Source: Antedon mediterranea (lineage: Eukaryota > Echinodermata > Crinoidea > Comatulida > Antedonidae). Taken from it: DNA of 64,000 nucleotides. A program made the position numbers and the translations under genes. The stretch spans positions 37,497,795 to 37,561,794 of the forward strand of contig NC_092670.1 in NCBI RefSeq assembly GCF_964355755.1, read 5' to 3'. Within the stretch, counting starts at the first letter, position 1. The number at the start of each line of letters is the position of its first letter. Positions 14,741 through 58,523 of the stretch are shown here, one piece after another. Below the pieces are notes generated by a model. That model was not told the DNA's origin and made no database searches. It worked only from the letters and a program-made list of their open reading frames with translations.

Positions 14741-17700
14741 CCTCAAAATATCTTATTGACAGAACAGTTGCACAAACGCACGTCTAGTAATATTAAGTTG
14801 ATTGATTACGGCATTGCTCGGTTCATTAACGGAGAAACCGAGCTACGAGATATTGTTGGCACGTTGGATTATGTCGGTAAGCAATCGTTGATGAAAATTA
14901 ATATTACTTAGCTGACGGAAATCAAATATATATTTTCTTTATTGTTTGTTTTGTGGCTTATTGGCGTGGGTGAATATTGAATGATTTTGTTTACAATTAA
15001 ATCTAAAAACTGTTTCTTGAAAGTTGATACTGTATATTGTAACAACATATACTTTTAGATTTTTATGAAATTATACGTTAAAGTTTAAAATACACTAAAA
15101 TTTTGTTTTGTAACTTGATATGTTTTCATGTTTTAATAGCATGGGCAGACAGATTACATTTCATAGATATTAAAGCGTTAAAGCTTTGTCTACACTAGCA
15201 AACTTAATGTGACAAAAAAATGTGGTGTGCCCATATATGGACATGATTTTATGTCATATCACTACCATTATCTGGGCATATCACTACCATATTTACCATT
15301 ATAACTAGTTAGTGTACACAGAATTTTAATGTATTGTCAGGATTTTAAGCTAGTCCTCTGGGATTGGCAATGCTAGCATGCTAACCACTACTATGATAGG
15401 CATACTTGAGATGAATGGTCTTTCTTTCGTTTCTCTTAACTGCAGGATTCAATGTTGACCTTTATTAAAAACAATTATGTAATATTTTGGCGTCTTTTAG
15501 CTCCAGAAGTGATTAACTACGACCCCATTACTTTAGCGAGTGACCTTTGGAGTGTAGGTGTGCTTACGTACGTCATGCTCACCGGCATTTCACCGTTCCT
15601 CGGAGAATCCAAACAAGAAACGCTACTTAACATCTCACAAATAAATCTAGAGTTTCCAGAAGACATATTTGAGGAGATCTCAGAAGAGGCTCAAGATTTT
15701 ATTCAACGACTATGTGTTAAAGATCCAAGGTATGTATCTATTTACACTGTGGTGGAAAACAATGGTTCTTGATGTGATTAATCCCTATTCGTAAACAAAG
15801 CTGTACTATACTATAGTAGTAGTAGTATATATAGTAGTATGTAACATCAACAGGTGTTGAATTTAAACCTACTCATCATCTTGGATGCCCAAGTTCTTTT
15901 AAGCTTTGTCTACACTATCAAACCAGTTGACAATAAAAGTGTGATGTGCCCAAATATGGTAGTGATATGACATCATCATGTCCGTATATGCGCACATCAC
16001 ATTTGTCACATAAAGTTTGATAGACAGACAGACAGACAGACAGACTTTAGAGTGCACATGAGTCAAATCTGTACACTGGGTCTCTATTTTTTTAGTTCAA
16101 AAGACTTTAGTTCTACCACCAGAATTATGGTAGAGGCATCTTAAAATTACATTTAAAACATTGGTTTTTTAGATGAGCGTTGTGGGGTTTAGAGTTCTAC
16201 ACTGAGTCTCCATTTTTCAAAAATACTTAGTTCTACCACCAGGAGTCTTAAAATGACATTTAAAAATTTTTTTTAGAGGAGCATTGTGGGGCAGTTGTGT
16301 TGCTTGGGGGTGTCTGACAGACATCCTTTTGATGGACCTTTGTTTGCATATATTGTAAAATAACAGTCTGATGATGATGAAAGTTTGTTTGGAGATTGTT
16401 AAAGAACTTGTGTGAAATGTAATCAGTGATTGTTTTGTTGCCCTTGGTCTAACTTGTTGTTATTCTAATGTTGTTTTAATAAGAACAACAGCAACAAGAT
16501 CAAATTTTATTGTGTCATCATTAACAGCCATGAATTAAATTTACAATTATATTGACTTGATTTTCTCAATGGAGGGCCATTATACTGGTTATATAGGCAA
16601 TGTGTACCAATGCATTTTGATGGGAAAATTACAATTAAACTAAGCATTTTGTATTTTAATTTACTCGGTGGCGTAACGCAGAGGCCTGAGGCCCTTGGTT
16701 TAGGAACCCTAAGTGGCCATCCAACGCTGGAGACTTGAGGTGTTTTTTGCCTTTTCAACATATTTTAATGCCTGTTGTTTCTTTTGGGCCTACTTGGGAT
16801 ACAAGACAAGACTAGAAATTCCACTGTTAATGAAATAAAATCCATTGTTTAGGAAATCCCACCCCCCAATTTTGGCTGAATATTTCATACCCAGGCCCAA
16901 TGCTACCACTGCCCATTCACATAAAGACTTATTTGAGTGAATGATGAACATAGTACAGTTGTTTATTATCAATAAAAACTAAAGCCGCATTCCCAAAGTA
17001 ATTGCATTTTTTAATTGAAAAATACCGATTGTGGTAAACATCCTCTTTACCAACATCAGACATCATAGATACTGTATTACACAAATATTTTTCTTACTTG
17101 TTTATCTTTCATTTCGGCACACGATTTATCTCCTACTTCACCCTTAAATAACATGTATCAACAACAGTTACCGAATTGCTTTTCTCCGTTGCAAATGGAT
17201 CGTGAAAGAGACACTGAAAGAGAAACATCTGCCTATTGAATGCTTTCTTTTTGTCATTATCTTCACACGTTTTTTAGCACAATCATGTATTGTGTTTTTC
17301 ATATACTAGCAGGGAAGTGAGTTTAATAACTTGGTAATTAGTGATTGGTATCATGTAAAAATGTATGAACTGTGAACTTTTTAAGTTCTTATTGAAAGTA
17401 AGCCACACTTAAGTTTTGTTAAAACCAACTTTTATCCTATTAAATTGTGAGTGAATTTTGAGTCCTGTATATGTTTTGTAAGTGAGTCAGACCAGAGTAG
17501 TTAATTAAGCTAGTATTTGGTTAATAATAGTTCTGAAAAAAATAATTAATGTTTTTTATTATTATTTTTCTAGTGAGAGATCTACAATAAAAGAATGTAT
17601 GATCCACCCGTGGTTTGAGATGACGCTTGACAGTTCAAAAGTCGAGTGCATTTCTGAGGTCAACTCAAATGAAATCTATGAGTGTAAGGAGAAAACACAT

Positions 17701-18057
17701 AGTCACCACTGTAATATTGACAAACTAATGAACGATACTGGCGTTGAAAACCTAACGCCTAAAGTAATACGAAATTGTACAACATGTGGTGAAGAAAAGG
17801 AACTTAGCGATGAAATTAAAATGGAAGAATCATTTACTGAACATGTTGAAACGGAAGATCCGAAAATGGATGTTTCGCAGTCGTACGATTCAAAGATAGA
17901 TCGGTTGGAGGAGCCGCTTGACAAACAGACAGTACCGTATAGTCCACAAGGTATACGTAGAACATTATCGATAAATAAGGAAAATATTCCGCAAGATGTA
18001 AACGAACCTAAACGATTTAAGATGGATCAACGGAAACAAGAGGCAATAGTTTGCTAG
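14741..18057 (+). CDS. STK17: STK17/DRAK-type death-associated serine/threonine kinase (3' part of gene)
   Basis: Three exons join cleanly: 14741-14876 (acceptor TTTCCAG, donor GTAAGC), 15501-15729 and 17574-18057, ending TAG. Exon 1 starts at PQNILLTEQ of the catalytic loop and carries the activation segment with IKLIDYG, in which the usual DFG is DYG, and VGTLDYV. Exon 2 has [30 protein letters not shown] and the [14 protein letters not shown] stretch typical of DRAK kinases. Exon 3 finishes the kinase fold ([18 protein letters not shown]) and adds about 145 residues rich in Glu, Ser and Lys, ending near KRFKMDQRK; mammalian STK17A has a comparable KRFK tail motif. DRAKs are CAMK-group kinases linked to apoptosis and actomyosin control. 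The N-lobe and the preceding HLDLK exon were not found. Whether it matches vertebrate STK17A or STK17B cannot be said; invertebrates usually have one gene. Confidence 0.88.
15181..15327. mobile_element. Palindromic MITE in STK17 intron
   Basis: Family ends AAGCTTTGTCTACACTAG and GTGTACACAGAATTTTA with two CACTACCAT blocks. It lies in the intron between the first and second recognised kinase exons. Confidence 0.75.
15901..16048. mobile_element. Palindromic MITE with microsatellite at its right end
   Basis: Left end AAGCTTTGTCTACACTATCA and core intact. The right end, normally TAGTGTAGACAGAGCTTTA, reads TAGACAGACAGACAGACAGA..., a run of about six GACA units, then CTTTA. It sits in the STK17 intron between 15729 and 17574. 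Confidence 0.8.
16669..16765 (-). repeat. Relative of the CAGTGGCGTAACG hAT-like MITE
   Basis: CGGTGGCGTAACGCAGAGGC followed by GGTTTAGGAACCCTAAGTGG is the inverted, divergent counterpart of 53742-53860, including CTTTTCAACATATTTTAATG at one edge. Lies in an STK17 intron. Confidence 0.6.
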
Positions 18058-22335: not shown

Positions 22336-23171
22336 TCAAGATGATGGACTGTTGCTACATCTCGCACAGCCACAACTTGTTGGTACGCTCACTTTTGCAC
22401 TACGCGCAACACCTCGTAACATTCTACCCGTGTGATCACGGCAGGTACGTAACATGACGTTGATTGATTCTTTACTACTTATATCACAGCATCGACATAC
22501 CTGTAAATAAAAACCTGTATGTTAATGTTGAATATTTCCATAATATCATACAAATACATTCAGTCTATGCGCCCTCTATACCCACTTTAAGTTTAGTCTC
22601 GGTTTCAGATAAACCCAGTGGCCGTATTCACCAATAATCAAACTTACGTGAGATAAGTATTTCACTTAACTCAATAAATATAAATAAATACGTATTTCTC
22701 GTAAATTGTATTCACTTCTTGTATAGAAGATGTTTGGCTTAAAACTGTGAGGGAGATCTGCTTTTATTTACCATCCAACTTACCTACTATTCTAGTGACG
22801 TCAACACGGTTCACAATTTCTTTCTACAACAACAAATGAAGAAGATAGCAAATGCTTACCCTAGTCAAGCCTCTTTTTATACTCCACATCTCGCTCGACG
22901 GACAGTTTCCTTCACATGCTTTTACTAGAACAGTTCCCTCGCATCGTATCTTCGAATTAACGCTTGTTGGGTTTGTGTAAAATCGCTTAACTTGAGTCGG
23001 GTACGATATTTCTGATAGTGCGCATTTAAAATATACGACGTCTGAGGTTCTCCCACCACCGCCGCCGCCGACACCCCGCCTTCCACCACCTCTAGTAGCA
23101 CCGTCGCATATACAGGCGAACTTGTAGAGGACGAAAATTACCATCAATGAAATACTGTTCACAGTGGCCAT
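22336..23171 (-). CDS. Secreted 11-cysteine cystine-knot hormone, bursicon-beta-like
   Basis: Two exons, 22860-23171 and 22336-22500, join in frame (donor GTAAGC, acceptor TTATTTACAG) to give 158 residues. Residues 1-24 form a signal peptide (hydrophobic LMVIFVLYKFA). A Gly/Arg-rich linker (28-41) follows, then a cystine-knot domain from Cys50. The cysteine pattern is C-x26-C-x8-C-x3-C-x15-C-x-C-C-x14-C-x22-C-x-C-x2-C, eleven in all. CEG-x9-CEGNC, CRCC and the final CGCARC are hallmarks of the bursicon/glycoprotein-hormone knot class. The x8, x3, x14 and C-x-C-x2-C spacings match the bursicon beta subunit as I remember it, but the family's more conserved QVQPS, CCRE and HCYDPDG stretches are absent. 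It could instead be a divergent GPA2-type or orphan knot protein. Such hormones are secreted dimers acting on LGR receptors; that role here is inference. Confidence 0.8.
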
Positions 23172-23364
23172 CTATAAGAGAAGATAATTACTAAAAACAA
23201 AGACAAAATGTCTTCATCTCCCTCATAATAAAAAATCCCGTCAAATTAGACCCTCCCGCCCATTAGCCTATTTACAGACTCGAATTAAAAGTCTCGATGG
23301 TCTATTCTACTACTAGTCGATGATTGTGAAAATAATAATTTAAAGTGATTTATGACAAAAGTGG

Positions 23365-24403
23365 TAGGTGGCCTACAATATTGTTCGTTTAGTTTTAAAT
23401 TTCATTTGTGGTAGAAAACAATTTGTTAATATTAATGGTGTTAAGTCAGAAATCGTAACCTCTGACACCGGTGTTCCTCAGGGTACTGTCAATGCACCTA
23501 AATTATATTCCTTGTATACGGCCGATTACAGATCTTTAAATGATGAGCTTTGCCCCGTTGTTAAATTCGCTGATGACACTTGTACTATTGGTCTCATAGT
23601 TTCAAACAATGATGAACATTATCGTAGCGAAATACAAAGATTTGTTAAATTTTGTGACGATAATTATCTCCAAATAAATGCATCTAAAACAAAGGAGATG
23701 ATCATTGATTTTAGGACTAAACATAAATTTAATTTTCAACCAATCACTATCAAAGGTAAAGAAATTGAAATTGTTGACCAGTACAAGTATCTAGGTATTG
23801 TTTTCAATGATAAACTGAGTTGGGGAGACCATATAGACTTCATCAGCAAAAAATTAAATCCCAGAATGTATTGTATGAGAACTTTATATAAATTTAACTC
23901 CTGTGATTTGATGTTACTTTCGTTCTATAGTTCCGTTATATGTAGTGTTTGGACGTACTGCCTCTCCTGTTGGGCTGGTAATGTTACCGGAGGGAATAAA
24001 GGACGCCTTGAAACTTTCATCCGTCGGGCTGGTAAAATGATTGGTCTGGAACTGCCTTCCATTACCGATGTGCACCTAGAACACCTCCAAGAAAGATTTT
24101 GAACGCATTGAGTCGGATGCCTCTCATCCTCTCCACAAAGTGATCATAGACCAACTTAATCCAAGTGGTAGATTGAGGCTCCTCAGTGTGAAAACAAATC
24201 GATATGCCAAATCCTTTATTCCCTCCGGTATCATCCAGTACAACAGAAAGTCAAGAAGATAATTTTATCTTCTATTTTTTGATGTTTTTTTATGAATGGT
24301 TTTATGCTATATTTGTTTTTATTGTGTTTTCTTGTTATTATGACGAGCAATGAATTTCCTTTTTGAGGATCAATAAAAGTTATCTTATCTTATCTTATCT
24401 TAT
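23365..24403 (+). mobile_element. 5'-truncated, frameshifted non-LTR retrotransposon (reverse transcriptase C-terminal part)
   Basis: An open frame from about 23368 to 24102 encodes the palm and thumb end of a LINE-type reverse transcriptase: GVPQGTVNAP, the catalytic FADDT (residues 67-71), LQINASKTKE and YKYLGIVFND. An extra T near 24100 breaks the frame. Reading resumes with FERIESDASHPLHK and ends at TAA 24260-24262. The 3' end AATAAAAG is followed by about five TTATC units (24380-24403), a short-repeat tail seen in CR1/L2/jockey-like elements. Finger domain, endonuclease and ORF1 are missing, so it is a dead, 5'-truncated copy. It starts roughly 190 bp upstream of the start codon of the divergently oriented cystine-knot gene. 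Clade cannot be fixed by eye. Confidence 0.85.
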
Positions 24404-38191: not shown

Positions 38192-41100
38192 TTGTAGAAG
38201 GTCACGACCTTTTGAGCTGATGTTGGGAACAATACTTGACAGTGACATTGACATTGGATATATTGGGAAGGGCTGAAATTATAACAAATATATATATAAT
38301 GCATTTGTTTCAATGTGAAATGCACACTATTTTGTTATAGCACCTTTAAGTGCAGGTTACGTTTCTGAATGAATGCGCTGCTTGCACAGCATTTATTGTC
38401 AAATATATAAAAATATTTAAAACTTTGTACACAGACAACGCTCTTAACAAAGTATAAAAAACACAATAATCTGGTCACAGGGCTTTTCATTATGTTTAAG
38501 TTTTATGTTGCAGGTATTATTAAATGCACTACACTAAGGTACAACAATAGTGCATAATCTTGCTCATTAGACTGTCTACACTATCAAATTGTATGTGACA
38601 AAAAAATGTGAGGTGCTCACATATCACCACCACATTTGGGCACTAGTTTGATAGTGTAGACAGAGCGTTATACCTTGTAATCTGGATGTTTAGAGACGCC
38701 TGGCCATGTCTCTTCTGTAGGTGTTCCCAGAAGTTTAAATATACGTTTCAGTTGATCCTCAACATCATTCCCCGGAAATAGTGGTCGTCCCGCATTACCC
38801 ATCTCTATAATGATTAATTAATGATTAAACCAATAATAACGCACAGTTAATGGCAAAAACAATTATACAATATATTACAAATTTAAAATAGTAGGGGATT
38901 CTGATGGTAATTTATATTTAAAAAAAATAAAAATGTTCATTTGAATATTAAAATTTAAAAGAATGTAGAAAGAAGGCACTGTTCATATTTGAAATAACTA
39001 TTACTGTACAGTACTTTATTCATTTTACTGTGAATGTACAGTTTTTTCTGTAATTTCTAACATACTGTACTATAAATATATTGTGTTAATGTATGATGTT
39101 TGTTATGAATAATATTCCCTCATTTTATGAATATTTGAGGAACTCCATTCATAGTTTTAAGAAGAGAATGCATGACAGTCGTAATAGTCTGATTACAACC
39201 ATAGTTAATGTATTTCCACAATCCAAACTGCATCTGTGTTGGTGCATAGAGATATTATAGTTCACTATAATATCTCTATGGTTGGTGCAAATTGATATTT
39301 TATGATAATTTAGGTTGTTTTTGAGGAAGATGCTATTGTTAATTTCCTTGTGACATTTTCTCTTTTTGTTTTGTACTATCCAAAATAAAGGAAATGAATG
39401 AATGAGTATACACTATACTGTAGCTATAAGGCTCTGTCTACGCTATCAAACTAGTTTGACAAAAAAAGTGTGATGGGCCCAAATATGGTAGTTATATACC
39501 CAAATATAGTAGTGCTATGACATCATCCATGACATGTCCATATATGGGCACATCACACTTTTTTGCCACATAACGTTTGATAGTGCAGACAGAGCTAAAA
39601 TAGAATCCATCGAAACTGTGCAATTATCTTTTAAAAATTATACACATTTTTACAACCTGCGAATATACATCCAGCGGACCACATATCAATTGATGTTGTG
39701 TAAACTTTAGCACCAAAAAGAACATCAGGAGGACGGTACCAGAGGGTGACAACTTCAGCTGAGTAGCACCTGACAGGTATACCAAACGCACGAGCAAGAC
39801 CAAAATCTGCAAGCTTTAGGTCTCCATTCTGAAAAAAAAATTATTTGGACCACCTGTACTGTTACAGCACTCTAGTATGTATTAAACACTGTAACTGGCT
39901 TGAAAGAAATATCTGAAAATTAGGTATCCTCAAAACAATATTTTTAACTTTCTTAAAATTAATTTAATTTATACAGTATTATTAGAAAAGGCAAAACAGA
40001 ATGGGTTTTGTACCATCATTAATTGATTTTGTGTTTTGCTGATGGGTGCATTGTGGATTCCAAACATCCTTCTTAGTATGCCTTCCTTTCCTCCTATCAG
40101 CACATCACTCAAGCTATTTTATATTTAATTTTGTTTTTATTTATTTTTCTGCTGTATATATTGTATTCTCTGGAGGAAATAAATATAACAAAAAAATAAA
40201 TAAATAAAAACAATAGAAATGATATTTAAACATTTTTGTAATACTAATATATTTACTGTATTAATAAGTAGATTCTGTGGTTTGAGGTCACGATGCAAGA
40301 CGTTGTTGCTATGGCAAAATGCTAAACCCCGTAGCAACTGATACATGAATGCTTTGACAACATCCTGGTCTATTTCTCCATTGCATGCATCAAAGTACTT
40401 CTTCAAGTCTTGATCGCAATATTCAAACACTAAAGTCAACCGCTTCTCGCTGTGTAGTACATCGTGAAGGCGAACAATATTCTTGTGTTTTAGTTCCTTT
40501 AACAGGCAGATTTCTCTTAATGCTGAGCTTGGTACACCCTAATGATAAAACACAGTAAAGCTCTGTCTACACTCAAACTTGGAAACAAAATTTGATGTGC
40601 CTATAATACACACAAATATGGTAGTGGTATGACATCATCATGTCCATATAATATGGACATGATGATGTCATACCACTACCATATTTGGGTGTATCACTGC
40701 ACTACCATATTTGTCAAACTAGTTTGATAGTGTAGACAGACCTTTATGTGACAAAAAAATGTGATGTGCCCATATATGGACATGATGATGTCATACCACT
40801 ACCATATTTGGCTATATTTGGACACGCCACACTTTTTTGGTAAAACTAGTTTGATAGTTAAGACAAAGCTTTATTTATTATTTTTTTAATTGGCACCGTT
40901 GACCACTTGGTCTAATGTAAAGATTTCTATCTTGTCTTAGGCACTACGCTGTGCTGATATAGACACCAGAATGGTCAAGTACCAATAGTCTATACACAAA
41001 ATGTTAGTTACATGCATGGACCACACCGATAGGCTTTTACAAGCACAGATGAATCTACCGATTGCAGTTTCCCCATCTCAATAATAGCCGGCCGGCCATA

Positions 41101-43227: not shown

Positions 43228-46200
43228 ATGTTTTCGGCTAAGTTCCTAACTTTTCTTATCTTTGGCTTGCTAATATTTGGTAGGCAACTCTGTAAAGCTG
43301 ACGAGGATGCAGCTACGGATGCTCCAGGTATTTATAGCTGTTATAATTTCAGTAGCTTAGCTAGCTCTAGGTAGGCCTAGACATGCATCTCCCCTGCTGC
43401 ATAGCATAGACCATAGGCTAATAGGCCTACATCATGATCATGATACACAGACTGAGGATGGTATATGAAGATAGGCATGGGCTATATAGGTAGGACGGGT
43501 AGGCTTTGCTTAGATTCATTCATCTTTCACCGAGCACTGCCTGTATAAAATGCACCGACCTACATAAACAACAATACAAGAGGAGACCAATCGTGCTTTA
43601 ATTATTTAGGCATATTAGTTTGAAGCAGGCACTCTGATTTGAAGATAGTAAAATTTGAAAATAAAACCATTTAATCTTTATTTATAACCAACCAAGAAGT
43701 ATTAAAATAATAAATCATTTTTTGTTTGTTATTTAGCTGAAACCGAGACCGGAAATGAAGAGGAGGCTGAAGATAGTGCGGATCCTGTAGTGGAAGAGGA
43801 GGGCGATGTTATTGTTCTAACAAATGAGAATTTTGACTTTGTTGTTATGGACAAAGAAATAATTTTAGTAGAATTTTATGCTCCTTGGTAAGTGGACAAA
43901 TGAAGTGGATCGACTTGGTCCATGCCTATCTCTTGGAGTCCTAGTACTAAACACCATGCAACATGTCCAATGCTATACATAATAATTCCACACACGCCTT
44001 TCCCTAGATGCTATTAGATGTTATTGTTTAGTACAGTAATCCATACCCCCCTAAATAATCAACTCACTCGTACATCTAACTGAAATTCTTTTTACTTCAC
44101 CATTGCTAATACCCTTTCTCTTCATAACAGATATCGATATCAACTTGGCTGTCTTACTTTTAAACCTCTCCATAATCTTGCTACTCAATCTATCTCTCAA
44201 TTACATTTTTATGTCTCGTCATGATGTATTTTTGTGAGGGTCCCTAATGATCAGCTTCGACTGGATGGTCCACCCTAATAAAATATTGTTGAAATAAAAT
44301 TAATAAATAATAAGACTGATTTGCCATTAAGCTGTTTAGTGGGTACAGTATACTTGTCAGACAATGTCTGACAAGGTCTTTATTTTAATTGTGTTGAACT
44401 TATATATACACAAATACATTATACAACAAACCTGTGGCAGTAAAAGAAGCTATTTGTATTCCAACATTGTATATATTATTTGCAGTAGTACACAAAATGC
44501 TAATTTGTTATTGTATTCAATTTCAGGTGTGGACACTGTAAAAGATTAGAGCCTGAATATAAGAAAGCTGCAAAAACTTTGAAAGAGAATGATCCACCTG
44601 TAGCTCTTGCAAAGCTTGATGCAACTGCTCATGCTGACGCAGCAGGACGCTACGATGTATCTGGATACCCTACCCTCAAAATATTCCGCAATGGAAAGGC
44701 GTACGACTACAAAGGTCCTCGTGAAGAGGCTGGTAAGGAGTACCATTTTGGTATTTGTTTTTTACTTGGTAACCTCTTCAGTCAAAGACTGCTCTCCCCG
44801 AGGGCCCAGTTATGATCAGTGGCTGTGTGTGTACTATTACACCGGGGTAACCCTACTCGTCTTGAAAGATGTACTAGGTTATTTAAAGTGCACATGAGCT
44901 AGATGTGTACACTGCTGGGGTAGCACTAACATTTCATTTTGTTTAGCCATTTGGCGAAAGTCAAAATATTTTTTTAGTCAAATCAGTTTATCTATAGCCA
45001 AAATGGCTAAAGTCTAATTTTTTTATTTAGCCAAATGAATCGGTTTATAGCCAACATTTAAAATTTTTGAAATATAGTGGTAAAAACATTTTAGTCAATT
45101 TATCTATGTCAACAGGTCTATACACTGTTCCCTGAACATTTTTGTAAGGCACTGAGATAAAGTAAAGAACCATGCCTACTGTATATCACTGTATGATTAA
45201 AAAAAATATTTTTTTTTTGTATTTTTTTTACATGATCAAAACAATTGTTCAAATTGTTTTTAATCATACAGCATTTTATACAGTTATCAATTTAATAAGA
45301 AACATTTTACAGTTTTCTGAAATCCCCTGAACGCTATGTTACTTTTGTTTTTTACGCTTGGCTGGTCATGTTTGCGTGTGGCGTACCAGGCGAAAATCGT
45401 GTCCTAGAATCACTCAGAATCACCGCCGCGCAGCCGGTTAATGTTTTTAAATTGGGTATGCTCAAGAGGTGCAAAAGTGCAGAACCGCCGGCCTAGGCCT
45501 ACAAAATTATGTACAACAACGCAACGGTATATCGTATGCTAAAAATATTGAGGGAAATGCCTGGAATTTTTATCATTTTATTTTATTGATGATCCTCCTT
45601 TATCTGCAAAAAAATAAAAACATTATTAGATAGATCTACATTGTTATATAATTATGTAAACATTTTGTATATTCTTAAGTTGTTGGAATTCAATCATGAT
45701 TAAGTCAATTACAAGGCGGTAGACCGGGAACCAGTCAACTGACAGAAGAGGGCTCTCAATGTCATTTCTATTGACGTACCTGCACACAATATTCATAACC
45801 ACACACCCCCACTTTAATAATGGAATAACCCTAAAAAAAAACTCCAGAGCCAAAACGGCAGTTGATCCATTCCGCTAGCAAACGAACACTCGTATCGTTG
45901 TTAAACGTAAGATAATATAGGCCAAAGCACAGAGTACACGTCTCTCCATCCCTCAAGGCTGCGCCGAAGCGTTTCTGTCAGGGCGAGAAATTTATCCGAT
46001 TATTATTAATTTTACACAACAAGACAGAAGCCGGCGGCCGGCCCCGCTCAGATGCACGTGTGTGTTCAGCTAAATCCCCGTTAGACTTTACCATTTCCCG
46101 CATGTTGTTTTGTTTACACTACTGACGCACGAGGGAAGTTTATTAAGGCTAAAATATGAAACTACATTAAATTGGAAGACTCTAAAATGCATAACGCATA

Positions 46201-49200
46201 CATTTTTGATTTCGATAAGATTAAGACGTCATTCATCGAAGATACTATAATGTTTCTTTTTAATCTGAAAAGTACACCCCTATCGAAAAATAGACAATCC
46301 CGGTAATTAGCCGACCGTCGGCTACGTAGTCGATCGTTTGTGCAGCGCACAACACGTGATAGTTTGGGTAGACTTCATCGTCCATGTGTCGTGTAACGTC
46401 TGTCTCTCTGTGCAGTCTACCTCTGCTATCTCCATCTTTTTGAAATAACAAAGAGACGCCTGGTACAACGAAACAAGTTGACGAAAAATGGAGCTTGAAG
46501 TAAACAATGTGATAACAAACAAAATAAATGCTTGGAGATCGACAAATGGACCTTTTAGTTGGACTTTATGCTTTCGCCAAAATGGTTATTTAATTATCTA
46601 TTTTATCATATGTCATCACCAAAATGGCTAAAGTAGCCGTTTTATTTTTCGCCAATCTAGAAACGTTTTCGCCCATGGCGACTTGGCGATCGGCCAGTGC
46701 AAGCCTAGCACTGGACCTACAGTAGGGTTTATAGTCCTTATCTGAGAAGACTTGATGCCATTCATCCAATAACTTGATGCTCACTGGCCCATTAGTTAGA
46801 CAGCTGTAAGATGTGAATAGATAATTGTACTCCTGTTGATTTTTTGAAATGGTTTTTTTGATTTTATTTTTCAGGTATTGTGAGCTACATGAAGGAGCAA
46901 GCAGATCCTAGCTGGGCACCACCTCCAGAGGCAGTCATCACGTTGACAGACGCAACATTTGATGAGGTCGTCAACAAAGAAGAGTTGATTCTTGTTGAAT
47001 TCTATGCACCTTGGTATGTTCTGCTAAAGCTCTGTCAAACAGATGGGACAAAAAAATATGATGTGCCCATATATGAACATGATGATATCACTACCATATT
47101 TGGGCATATCACTACTATGTTTGAGCACATCACACTAGTTTGATAGTGTAGACAGCTTAATAAGACGTTTCTCAAATAATATTGTGCGCTGTGAACCTAT
47201 TCAACCTTATTAAAACAAGGTCGAAAACTAAAATAGGAAGTATTCAGTTTCACAAATAAAATACTGTAGCAACCTAGCGCGCTGTTGTTGATGGGAAGAG
47301 GCTATTGGCACGAACGGTTAACAGCATATAATAATTTATTTATTTTCTATCTGCATAGGTGAATTTTTTTTAATGATCATGCACCTAGTTCGCTGTGCTG
47401 ATAAGACAACAGAATTAAGGATTATGTGTCACCTTGCCAATAGAAAACAAAGCATTAGATGCATAGTTGACGTTGTCGATAGGGTCAACTGTGCTAATAG
47501 CGATGATACTAATTATTCTGTATCATTGATAGAAAATACTATTGCATTGATTGAAAATACTATTGCATTGATTGAAAATACTATTGCATTGATTGAAAAT
47601 ACTATTGCATTGATTGAAAATACTATTGCATTGATTGAAAATACTATTGCATTGATTGAAAATACTATTGCATGGTCGACCAAACCTATAGAAACTTTAA
47701 ATTACACACTAATCACAAAACAAGTCAATAATAATTATATTCTTTTACTTCAGGTGTGGTCACTGCAAAAAGCTAGCCCCAGAATATGAAGATGCAGCAC
47801 AGCAATTGAAAAAGTTTGATCCCCCAATTCCACTAGCTAAAGTGGATGCAACAGAAGCAACAGAAAGCGCTGGTAGATTTGGAGTTACTGGCTACCCAAC
47901 GCTTAAAATCTTCAGGAATGGAAAAGATTATGAATATAATGGACCACGAGATGGCCCAGGTAAGTTACTGTTATCAATATGTCGCCCTCTACTTTTATTA
48001 GACACTGGTCCAGCATACAATGTCTATGTCTTTATCTTATTTCTTTATACTAATTTTAATATTATTATGATTGTAGTACACTGAAAGTATCTATTTTTAT
48101 TTCATCGTTTTTGTTTTTATTTATTATTTTAAGTAGTAAATTGTATTAGTTTAAATGTATGTGTATTATTTCTGGTGTCTTTCTCGAGACAAGAAACTTG
48201 ATTTCTTCTAGAGAAGACCCTAAATGATGGCTTATTACTATGTTTTCATTTATGTACACACATATATTATACTGTATAATGCCATTGTTGAACAAATAAA
48301 TGTTTTTTGAACTTTTGAACTTGATGTACAGACTCTAGTCAATCACAACACACCTGGATCATTGCCGTTTTAAACATGCTGTTTAGTATTGGTTCTATTG
48401 TATGATCATAACAATTCTATTCAATTGTACTATTGCATGACAGATTTTTGTGAAAAAAAAACTGATAATGAATGTTTCAAAATTCGTTGAAAACCAGTCC
48501 TATTTAACTTGCCAATCAATCTTCCAACCCATAGAAATATTCTCTCTATTCAACTCATAAACATTCATTATTGTACACTGATAAAACAATATTTCATTCT
48601 TCAGGAATAATCGATTATATGCAGAAACAATCAGGCGATAGTTCAAAGAATAAAGCAACATTGAAGGACATGAAGAAGTTCTTAGAACATCAGGATGATG
48701 TCAGCATTGTTGGCTTTTTTAGTAGTGAAGAAGATGATCTATACAAGATGTACCTTGACAAAGGTATGTAGTATAGCAATGTTAGTCACAATGAGGCCCA
48801 GACTTTATACCCACACATACGATGATTAAAGCTCTGTCTACTCTATCAAACTAGTGATATCCCCACATATGGTAAAAATATGACATCATCATGTCCATAT
48901 TTAGGGCACATCACATTTTTTGTCACATAAAATTTGATAGTGTAGACAAAAGTTTAAAACACAAGAAAGAAGATTATATATATATGTATGTATGCCGTTC
49001 TGTGTCTTTATTAATAACAATAAGCCTCAAAGGAGGGGTTTATAAGCACGATAAATTATAAAATAGTTTATCCATCCTGTAATTGGCGTATTTGTGCTCA
49101 CTGTTGGATGCGTATAAAATAAAAAATATTAATAATAATAATAATATTATGAAAAATTCTAAATTAAAACTTAGTTTATAAGCATGATTTATAAGCATGA

Positions 49201-51253
49201 TAAATTATGAAATAGTTTATCCATCCTGAAATTGGCGAGTTTGTGCTCGCTGTAGGAAGCGTATGAAATAAAAAAAAAATTGTTTTAATTTCAGGTAATA
49301 GTTTACGTGATGACTACCGATTTGCCCACACATTTGATGCGACGGTTATAAGCCACTACAAAGCAAAAACTGAATCTATTGTTGTCTTTGTACCAGAACG
49401 ATTCCAAAGCAAGTATGAACCAAAGAGATATGTGTTCACACAGGTAAGAATGGATACTTTATACTGGCCACAAGAAAGTTACTTTCCTTTTATGCAGTCA
49501 GTGAACTATAAATTGTGACACCTTAAGCTCTGTCTGCACTATCAAACTAGTTTGATAAAAAAAAATGTGATGTGCTCAAATATGGTAGTGATATGCCCAA
49601 ATGTGGTAGTGATATGCCCAAATGTGGTAGTGATATGCCGAAATATGGTAGTGATGTGACATCATGTCCATATACCCTGTATGGGCACATCACATTTTTT
49701 TGTCGCATAAAGTTTGATTGTGTAAACAGAGCTTTAGACTGGCCTTTAAAAATGCTTTTAGTTTTAAGATAGTTTCTCGGTTTTTTTTTTTGAGTTTCCT
49801 AAATGACCCATATACACCATTTCATAATATATTGCATGGAGGTTTTTTTATGCACTTAAAATTAAAAAATTGAATTTTATCAACTGTCTTAGGCTGATGG
49901 AGACTCCGATGATCTTGAGGAATTCTATGAAAAACACCAATTGCCGTTGGTTGGGCAGATGACAAAGGCAAATCAAGAAAAGCGATATGCAGGCCGCCCT
50001 CTATTGGTTGCTTATTATTCCGTTGACTGGAGTTTTGAATACAGAGTTGGTAAGTGAAACTTTGTTTGGTGTTTAAACGTGTTTATGGAACTTGTTTTTG
50101 AGTTGAGTACAATGAACATTAATTTACACATTCTAGCCACTGAGATCTGGCGTAAGAAGTTATTAGACGTTGCTAAGGACTACAAAGATTTGACCTTTGC
50201 CATCGCGGACGAGGAAGAGTTCAAAGATCAACTGAAAGAGCTTGAGCTGGATGACAGCGGTGAAGAAATAAGCATCGGTATCTGGGGAAATGACAAAAAG
50301 AAGTTTAGGATGGATCCAGAGGAAGATTTTGATGACGAAGAGTTGAGAGAATTTATTGATGACTGGAAAAAAGGTAAATCAGTATTTATTTACTTAATTT
50401 ACAATAGATTGGTTCTGGCTACTACCATATGAATGATCTCGTTAGACCTTATCATACAGTTTATCAGTAAAGTGGTTTTCTTAAGCCTAGTCTACACAAG
50501 CAAGTTTGTCAACTACTGAAGTTTACACCAGCAAACTTTGATAAACCTTTCTTGACAAATTCAGAGTTTGTTGAGTTTGTTTACAGAGGTAGCTTAAAGC
50601 TCTATCTACACTATCAAACTATATTGAGAAAAAATGTGTGATGTACACAAATATGGTAGTGGTATGCCCAAATATGGTAGTGATATAGCATCATCATGTC
50701 CATATATGGGCACATCATATTCTTGTTACATACAGTTTGAAAGTGGAGACAGAGCTTTAAACAATAAATAAATGTGTATCCTTTTAGTTTAGTTATCACT
50801 TGGTAACTTCAAAATTCTGTTCTCTGTACAGGTAAAGTTGATCCTGTTGTTAAATCACAGCCAACCCCAAAGAAGAACAATGGACCAGTTACGATTGTTA
50901 CTGGAAAAACATTTGAAAAGATCGTTTTGGACAAATCTAAAGACGTCCTATTGGAATTGTATGCTCCTTGGTGTGGACATTGCAAAAAACTGGAGCCGAT
51001 CTTCAAGAAACTAGGCAAGAAATATAAAGATAACAAAAATATAGTTATAGCTAAGATGGATGCCACAGCCAATGATGTGCCATCTCTAAGTTACACCCAT
51101 ATGGGATTCCCAACACTTTATTTCGCAAAAGCTAATGATAAACAAAAGCCAGTTAAGTTTGAAACTGGCGAGCGTTCGTTGGAAAAGTTGGTAGAATTTA
51201 TTGAATACCATGCTACAGTTGATTTGAAAAAGGGGGCAAAGACCGAGTTATAA
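43228..51253 (+). CDS. PDIA4: Protein disulfide-isomerase A4 (ERp72)
   Basis: Ten exons join in frame: 43228-43327, 43737-43887, 44527-44732, 46875-47013, 47754-47959, 48605-48763, 49295-49443, 49893-50049, 50137-50373, 50832-51253, giving 641 residues (vertebrate PDIA4 is about 645). Order: signal peptide (1-24, [12 protein letters not shown]), acidic segment, thioredoxin domain a0 with WCGHC at 84-88, domain a with WCGHC at 199-203, two redox-inactive thioredoxin-like domains b and b', domain a' with WCGHC at 548-552, and the C-terminal KTEL ER-retention signal. It forms, breaks and shuffles disulfides in client proteins in the ER lumen. Domains a0 and a share intron positions: inside the Trp codon of WCGHC and after the final Gly, with both middle exons 206 bp long. 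Domain a' has no such introns. Introns hold four palindromic MITEs, a 21-bp mini-satellite and a tandem duplication. Confidence 0.97.
44930..46712. other. Probable large insertion in PDIA4 intron 3
   Basis: The 2.1-kb intron has related, inverted edges: TAGCACTAACATTTC with TTTAGCCATTTGGCGAAAG at the left, and TTCGCCAATCTAG with GCCAGTGCAAGCCTAGCACT at the right, each near ATGGCTAAAG motifs. The middle (45340-46530) is richer in G+C and CpG than the surroundings. No clear coding frame or target duplication was found, so the element type is unknown. Confidence 0.35.
47025..47158. mobile_element. Palindromic MITE beside PDIA4 exon 4 donor
   Basis: TAAAGCTCTGTCAAACAGAT starts 11 bases after the donor at 47014 (GTATGTTCTGC). 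The right end is TAGTGTAGACAGCTTA. Core contains CATATATGAACATGATGATA and two CACTACNAT blocks. Confidence 0.8.
47525..47671 (+). repeat. Seven-copy mini-satellite, 21-bp unit, in PDIA4 intron 4
   Basis: ATTGATTGAAAATACTATTG plus C repeats seven times; only the first copy differs (ATAGAAAA). Because 21 is a multiple of three it keeps one frame open and creates a false repetitive peptide. Confidence 0.95.
48460..48576. repeat. Fold-back family fragment (AATGAATGTTT ends)
   Basis: GATAATGAATGTTTC at the left is mirrored by AAACATTCATTATTG at the right, matching the edges of the element at 20632-20793; the middle is unrelated. In PDIA4 intron 5, ending about 30 bp before exon 6. Confidence 0.55.
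48828..48954. mobile_element. Palindromic MITE in PDIA4 intron 6
   Basis: Ends AAAGCTCTGTCTACTCTATC and TAGTGTAGACAAAAGTTTA, with the family core and its GACATCATCATGTCCATAT centre. Confidence 0.85.
49030..49275 (+). repeat. Two-copy repeat in PDIA4 intron 6
   Basis: TTTATAAGCACGATAAATTA ... GTTTATCCATCCTGTAATTG at 49038-49130 recurs with substitutions at 49188-49275, just before exon 7. Confidence 0.8.
49524..49735. mobile_element. Palindromic MITE with four-fold internal expansion
   Basis: Ends AAGCTCTGTCTGCACTATCA and TTGTGTAAACAGAGCTTTA. The block TATGGTAGTGATATGCC is present four times in tandem, making this the longest copy (about 210 bp). In PDIA4 intron 7. Confidence 0.85.
50595..50759. 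mobile_element. Palindromic MITE in PDIA4 intron 9
   Basis: AAAGCTCTATCTACACTATC at the left, AGTGGAGACAGAGCTTTA at the right, two CAAATATGGTAGTG blocks in the core. Confidence 0.85.
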
Positions 51254-56900: not shown

Positions 56901-58235
56901 ATATAAGTAAAATAAATATAAACAAGTAAAGATACACTATACAATATAGACTACAATGTGATTCAACAGTATTTGTCATTGAAAGCACGGATGGGAAAAG
57001 GAACGAATGATTTTAGATATCTGTTCTACCAGTTCTACATAGTGTGCTGCTACTTAGTTATTGCACTCACTTCCTTTCACCACAAACAAAACGAAAACTA
57101 TAGAGATCCATAATCACTAGTTTAGATTTAAACCACTTCACACCTTTAACAAAATGATTAACATGGTTGATTAAGCATGAAACTGAACATGACATCACCT
57201 GTCTTTGACTCTGAGAATCTGATTGTGAAATCCAACAATATTCTCAAAGCTTGCTCGATCTGTGACTGAATAAACGAGAAGAAAACCGCCACCGCTCCTC
57301 ATATACTGCTCTCTCATTGCACTAAATTCTTCCTGTCCGGCAGTATCTAAAACTTTTGAAAGAAAATGACAAAATTAATTATAATACTGTCCAAGGGCGG
57401 ATCCAGCATTATAGATTAGGAGGGGGTTAAATATTTCATAAATGATAAAAACAATCCGTCAGTTTGCATAAAAATAACATTATTTAAAAAACCATGTTTA
57501 TCCCCCACCTAAATCCGCGCCCGCTGTCTTGGTAGGATAACCCATCATAAAAAAAGCTCCTTTTAATTTGATACAATAGTGGTACAGGTCTTGTCTATTG
57601 AGGCATGGGATTGCGATATCACTCGCCTAACACACTTTTAAAATTCCCCCGAGTTTGGTAATTTTCTACCCGCTAAGATACAAACAGCAAGTGAAATTTG
57701 TAGCACACTTGCAAGTGAGTTGCCAATTTACAAATTCATCGATGTTTAAAACAATTACATGTTGTTTTTTTCTCATTTTGTACATAATATTATATGTTCT
57801 TTTTTTTTACAAACACATTTTCCCCAAAAAAATGAAAAAATGAAGATTAATTAAATCCGACTTTGAATGTAGGTTTTTGTAATTTTAAGAAAAAAATGAC
57901 AAAAATAAATGGTTAAATTCAACCAAAAACTATTTTTTTGCTTAAAATCACAGTTTTTTTTTTCAGGTAACTACATTTTTTTCTAACTATAAGGTGACAT
58001 TAAAATGGCATATCCAACAAAAAAAATGTTTCATTTTGCACAACTTACCATCTAACATGCACCACTCTCCATCTACTTCCTCATGCTGCATGTACGAATC
58101 CTCAATCGTTGGATCGTAATCTTCTACGAACATTTTCTGGAAGAACTGAATTGTAATTGCACTTTTACCGACACCACCGTCCCCGACAACAACCAGCTTA
58201 TAAGTTGATAAATTACTACTTGAAATATCTGCCAT
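53945..58235 (-). CDS. MRAS: Ras-family GTPase M-Ras (R-Ras3)
   Basis: Four exons join in frame: 58049-58235, 57199-57352, 54197-54296, 53945-54091, giving 195 residues. The P-loop GDGGVGKS is at 18-25, switch [10 protein letters not shown] at 40-48, DTAGQEE at 65-71, NKVD at 124-127 and ETSAK at 152-156. The C-terminus is CTVL, a CAAX box whose Leu predicts geranylgeranylation, with a second Cys four residues earlier (CFHDC) that could be palmitoylated. The Asp in VGDGG, FFQK and VNDxVHQRK-type NKVD context favour M-Ras over R-Ras. M-Ras is a membrane-bound switch that with SHOC2 and PP1 promotes RAF activation. Vertebrate M-Ras has a lysine-rich tail before the CAAX; here the tail ([14 protein letters not shown]) is short and only mildly basic. 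Introns 1 and 2 contain repeat elements. Confidence 0.94.
54659..54902. mobile_element. TAAAGATGTATTG-family element, ends worn
   Basis: CCCCAAAAACATGAAAAATG, ATTAATAAAATCAGACTTT, TTTTTCAGGTAAATACACTT and a GGGGGACAG edge match the element at 55319-55633; the interior GGCTGCCAGCC block is deleted. In M-Ras intron 2. Confidence 0.7.
55081..55232. mobile_element. Palindromic MITE in M-Ras intron 2
   Basis: Ends AAGCTCTGTCTACATTATCA and TAGTGTAGACAGAGCTTTA with TA on both sides; core with GATGATGTCATATCACTACC. Confidence 0.85.
55319..55633. mobile_element. Full-length TAAAGATGTATTG element in M-Ras intron 2
   Basis: Starts TAAAGATGTATTGTCTTG and ends GGGGGACAATACATCTTTA. Interior has ACCAATTGGCTGGCAGCCAA. 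About 315 bp, no frame. Best reference copy of the family in this window. Confidence 0.85.
55868..56150. repeat. Rearranged fold-back family copy
   Basis: ACAAATAATAAATGTTTATG and TGGTACAAATAATGGCATGA followed by AATGATGAAAGG match one arm of 20632-20793. AATAGTGCATACTATTGCAC and CATGTGACCAATAATTG are the inverse of the sequence near 20520-20560, so both loci carry parts of the same element. Confidence 0.65.
57822..58030. mobile_element. Partial TAAAGATGTATTG element in M-Ras intron 1
   Basis: CCCCAAAAAAATGAAAAAAT, GAAGATTAATTAAATCCGAC and a TCAGGTAACTACATTTTTTT block match the family; the outer ends are missing and it stops just inside the exon 1 donor region. Confidence 0.65.
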
Positions 58236-58523
58236 TTCTGATGCGTTAAAATTGTTTTGATACCCGCCAGTTAGTAAGAAATACGCGTCAAAAACATATC
58301 ATAATTTTTCCCACAGCTGTCATAATACAATAAGCATGTCTGCAAGCAAATAATAATTATTGTAATTAACGACCTGTCATAATTATTTCAAGGTTAATTG
58401 CTTGAATTAAGTGTGCAGGCAATTAGTACCGAGGGATCATGTCAAAATGATTCTACTCCAGTTACTGCAGAAACAAAATTATATTTAGAAAGCAAAATTA
58501 CATTACATGATCCCTGTGAAATG

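Follow-up and report, generated by a model that had tools for sequence, protein, structure and literature searches.

The gene and its surroundings

The window, by which we mean the whole 64,000-nucleotide stretch of the crinoid Antedon mediterranea genome that was analysed, carries on its minus strand a spliced reading frame (23171-22860 joined to 22500-22336) that encodes 158 residues as a single open frame with TGA as its stop. Coding exon 1 (22860-23171, residues 1-104) specifies a signal-peptide-like start, a Gly/Arg tract and the first half of a cystine knot, and coding exon 2 (22336-22500, residues 105-158) extends from VCRCC to the stop. The minus-strand intron between them (22501-22859) is a phase-0 GT-AG intron of 359 bases, running from gtaagc to tttacag; the donor reads ACTAGG/gtaagc and the acceptor tttttatttacag/GTATGT, and use of an alternative AG 14 bases upstream of this acceptor would disrupt the frame. 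The exon and intron coordinates and the two-exon, 158-residue product proposed in the initial annotation are correct, with an open spliced frame and consensus splice sites, and judged by its sequence the gene looks real and intact.

The hydrophobic start of the product (about residues 1-23; 23103-23171, minus strand) was judged by eye to be a probable signal peptide. Between it and the knot lies the Gly/Arg-rich insertion that had been described earlier (residues 27-41; 23049-23093, minus strand), which is encoded by a trinucleotide-rich run and contains RR as a possible cleavage site. The knot domain comprises residues 50-152 (22357-23024, minus strand, with the intron inside). Of the 13 cysteines of the product, the signal-peptide region contains two and the knot the remaining 11, with the spacings C-x8-C-x3-C, C-x-C-C-x14-C and C-x-C-x2-C as first read. 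We note that TTCTCTTATAG, immediately before the ATG (23172-23186, minus strand), resembles a splice acceptor, so that a non-coding 5' exon is possible.

Part of the intron (22615-22735) is a dispersed repeat that recurs at least 40 more times across the genome, and a plus-strand LINE reverse-transcriptase fragment with a TTATC-repeat tail (23368-24400) lies some 200 bases 5' of the start codon. Elsewhere in the window, exons at 15440-18054, 40140-40538, 44504-51250 and 57990-58298 were assigned by domain and by eye to ordinary genes, namely a protein kinase, a CDK5-like kinase, a PDI with several thioredoxin domains and a Ras-family GTPase.

Cystine-knot genes and hormone receptors in the genome

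Family and protein searches covered the genome of 354 Mb in 18 contigs, and positions outside the window are given by contig. The reference sequences of Drosophila burs and pburs, human GPA2, GPB5, vWF and LGR5 and an invertebrate GPA2 consensus may not be exact to the letter; the pburs, GPA2 and LGR5 probes matched plausible targets, and part of the vWF sequence agrees with a PDB chain.

A canonical bursicon-beta gene is present at C1:12009368-12025113 (exons C1:12009368-12009625 and C1:12024958-12025110). Three bursicon-alpha-like genes (C1:39230305, 39238716 and 39244550) lie within 15 kb, at C1:39230305-39244816; two are reported for A. mediterranea. GPA2 was located at C10:19.47 Mb and GPB5-type exons at C10:19.42-19.45 Mb. 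The human GPA2 probe found no GPA2 in the genome, and its match at C6:11.9 Mb was rejected as a GPA2 candidate and reads as a TGF-beta-like knot; the invertebrate consensus recovered the crinoid GPA2. Further knots, named by eye, are of gremlin, sclerostin, norrin and slit type, together with several that are vWF/mucin-like. Two vWF-like knot exons, C1:14859813 and C1:14908671, are nearly identical and 49 kb apart, indicating a recent duplication.

With regard to receptors, two type-A glycoprotein-hormone receptors were identified (C7:9844373 and C10:16091561), which among solved structures are nearest to the LH and TSH receptors. A search with the human LGR5 probe did not find a type-B (bursicon-type) LGR, its two best matches being these type-A receptors; such an LGR may nevertheless be encoded. 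The same genome encodes at C4:25447225 a secreted CFWRTCPVG-GKR; CFWRTCPVG-NH2 is the crinotocin of A. mediterranea, and its Trp-Arg pair is distinctive of crinoids within the echinoderms (PMC9793003). The peptide identifies the genome as that of a comatulid crinoid, probably close to Antedon; a COX1 search of the genome gave no match.

Evidence for kinship with bursicon-beta

The knots can be compared by listing the first loop, the following x, the residues around CxGxC, the next loop, the C-x-C-C motif, the x after it and the residues to the last C-x-C. Written in this way the window gene reads 26/8/EGN/15/CRCC/14/22, the canonical crinoid bursicon-beta 23/8/EGT/17/CKCC/14/22 and Drosophila bursicon-beta 23/8/EGK/17/CYCC/14/25. 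The other measurable knots have first loops of 13-18 residues, nearly all have CC-x13-C, and 15-21 residues precede their last C-x-C. The window gene thus has the bursicon-beta pattern of 11 cysteines, a long first loop (26) and 22 residues before the last C-x-C, and three features that it shares with bursicon-beta set it apart from the other knots of this genome: the long C1-C2 loop, CC-x14-C and an intron in phase 0 that lies one residue ahead of C-x-C-C. In starfish and insects, too, the bursicon subunits have 11 cysteines (PMC4772807).

The intron interrupts the window gene at GLTR/VCRCC and the canonical bursicon-beta gene at GFTK/VCKCC, that is, at the same site and in the same phase. 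The bursicon-alpha, vWF-like, gremlin, sclerostin, norrin and slit-type knots of the genome are each a single exon across this site; in crinoid GPB5 the intron falls just after CxGxC and in crinoid GPA2 after CC. That site and phase both coincide is the strongest single indication of shared ancestry, since intron position is independent of residue similarity.

The canonical crinoid gene and the window gene further agree in x8/x3 and in a signal-peptide-like start. They differ in the length of the first loop (23 versus 26) and in the loop before C-x-C-C, which is two residues shorter in the window gene, as well as in its Gly/Arg tract; the canonical protein has an N-V-T glycosylation motif, whereas the knot of the window gene is without one. 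Identity to either bursicon-beta, crinoid or Drosophila, is about 25%. The initial annotation stated that hardly any other conserved bursicon residue was present, which overstates the divergence: C-x-G-x3-V-x2-CEG-x-C-x-S is conserved with both the canonical crinoid bursicon-beta and the Drosophila partner of bursicon, as are a G ahead of C-x-C-C, an L within x14 and a P preceding the last C-x-C.

A bursicon-beta profile built from two sequences scores the window gene at 32.4 bits, compared to 21.5 for vWF-like, 16.9 for bursicon-alpha, 10.9 for GPA2 and 2.4 for GPB5 profiles. None of 2000 shuffles in which the cysteines were held fixed reached 32.4 bits with the bursicon-beta profile (best shuffle 28.9), and the likeness to bursicon-beta is beyond chance. 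The top raw pairwise scores are to the crinoid and Drosophila bursicon-beta sequences; the largest pairwise z-score is to GPA2. A protein search of the genome with the window-gene product found no paralogue and a genome search with the canonical bursicon-beta did not recover the window gene, so the link to bursicon-beta rests on profile, spacing and intron.

Pfam returned for the product only Cys_knot, at 14.1 bits and below its cut-off of 24, the Pfam DAN profile had no match at E up to 10, and NCBIfam gave chance matches only. Since the Pfam knot and DAN profiles likewise fail to match the canonical crinoid and Drosophila bursicon-beta proteins, the weak Pfam match of the window gene says little; standard domain profiles overlook bursicon-beta genes, the canonical ones included. 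Against PDB, a sequence search with the product gave a weak vWF match (E 0.43) and a profile search gave 8enb_B, a Cys_knot domain protein (E 0.018).

In the trees, originally proposed as a check and built on 94-104 columns, the gene is placed with bursicon-beta (57/88 in one tree), but no branch is well supported, and in two of the three its partner is human GPA2, within the bursicon-beta group. With about 100 columns and no well-supported branch the tree evidence is therefore weak.

A probable second bursicon-beta gene and rival readings

Taken at roughly 80% probability, our reading of the sequence is that the window gene is a second, fast-evolving bursicon-beta (partner-of-bursicon) paralogue, besides the canonical copy. 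The earlier suggestion of a fast-evolving bursicon is supported, for the beta type, by spacing, intron site and phase, and the profile score. Between the window gene and the canonical crinoid copy all 11 cysteines are identical as compared to 15 of the 91 other aligned residues (Fisher p 4e-8), a combination that points to rapid sequence change with the fold kept under constraint. The window gene shares 16 of 93 non-cysteine residues with Drosophila and the canonical crinoid copy 28 of 92 (p 0.04), which fits a faster rate in the window gene. The window gene lies no closer to the crinoid than to the Drosophila copy, so the duplication may be either recent and fast or old.

Alternatively, the gene might encode a solitary knot of vWF/mucin type, a group expanded in this genome, with a convergent likeness to bursicon-beta and a role in extracellular matrix or mucus rather than as a hormone. 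Knots of this type are usually the terminal part of a long multidomain protein. They share C-x-C-C with the window gene and a local similarity around CxGxC, seen in the PDB match to vWF and in the knot at C1:14.9 Mb; the vWF-like profile score likewise exceeds all shuffles, and the trees do not reject the placement (AU p 0.09-0.50). Their loop lengths are nevertheless different (first loop 13-18 against 26, CC-x13 against x14, 15-16 residues against 22), the intron is absent from all such knots in the genome, and the bursicon-beta profile scores 11 bits higher. Measured against the pattern of vWF/mucin C-terminal knots, a first loop of 13-14, CC-x13-C and 15-16 residues to C-x-C, the window gene does not fit. 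We regard this explanation as improbable. Bursicon-alpha also has an 11-cysteine knot with C-x-C-C, but its first loop is 13, followed by x9 and CC-x13-C, with no intron at that site.

A divergent glycoprotein-hormone subunit of GPA2 or GPB5 type, which the initial annotation also offered, could be argued from the human GPA2 pairing in two trees and from the largest z-score. Both hormones, however, have genes of their own here that differ in cysteine pattern and intron position: in the crinoid GPA2 the CC lacks the preceding C-x, the spacings are x9 and CC-x13, and the intron follows CC, where the window gene has CRCC, x14 and its intron before, and the crinoid GPB5 differs in its intron and in having no C-x-C-C. 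With the two lowest profile scores as well, this relationship is not supported and seems very improbable to us. We find it just as hard to credit that the gene is a pseudogene or an unexpressed bursicon-beta duplicate. The LINE fragment upstream of the ATG and the repeat that fills part of the intron would suit such a history, but the frame is open, the splice sites are consensus, and all 11 cysteines are retained though more than 80% of the other residues have changed, which is not expected of a decaying pseudogene. A new knot subfamily, the remaining earlier suggestion, is unneeded to explain the data, though the trees alone leave room for it.

In A. mediterranea, two bursicon-alpha and two partial bursicon-beta precursors have been reported (PMC9793003, Figures 3C,D for beta), so that a crinoid with two beta genes has a precedent and the window gene would be a new or re-found bursicon-beta and not a new knot subfamily. 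It may be orthologous to one of those two beta precursors; a text search of the literature found no bursicon-beta sequence strings.

Possible hormone function

Bursicon is familiar mainly for its part in insect moulting, and to our knowledge no role has been established for it in echinoderms. The label "neurohormone" given to the window gene comes from its family. By analogy with that family, the product would be a secreted protein, possibly cleaved at the RR within the Gly/Arg tract, which could pair through the extra cysteine of C-x-C-C with one of the three bursicon-alpha proteins or with itself, and could act on a bursicon-type leucine-rich-repeat GPCR. Bursicon itself is an alpha/beta heterodimer acting on the receptor DLGR2 (rickets), and insect bursicon homodimers switch on antimicrobial peptide genes without DLGR2 (PMC5320557). 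That the window gene contributes to an alpha/beta heterodimer acting on a bursicon-type LGR is a tentative proposal, to which we give slightly less than even odds. We speculate, with clearly less conviction, that it might be a crinoid beta subunit with a changed partner or receptor, for instance one particular bursicon-alpha of the three, or a homodimer; if true, this would amount to a second bursicon-like hormone in feather stars. With two unlike beta and three alpha subunits in one crinoid several different dimers could form, and such an animal would show how dimeric cystine-knot hormones diversify.
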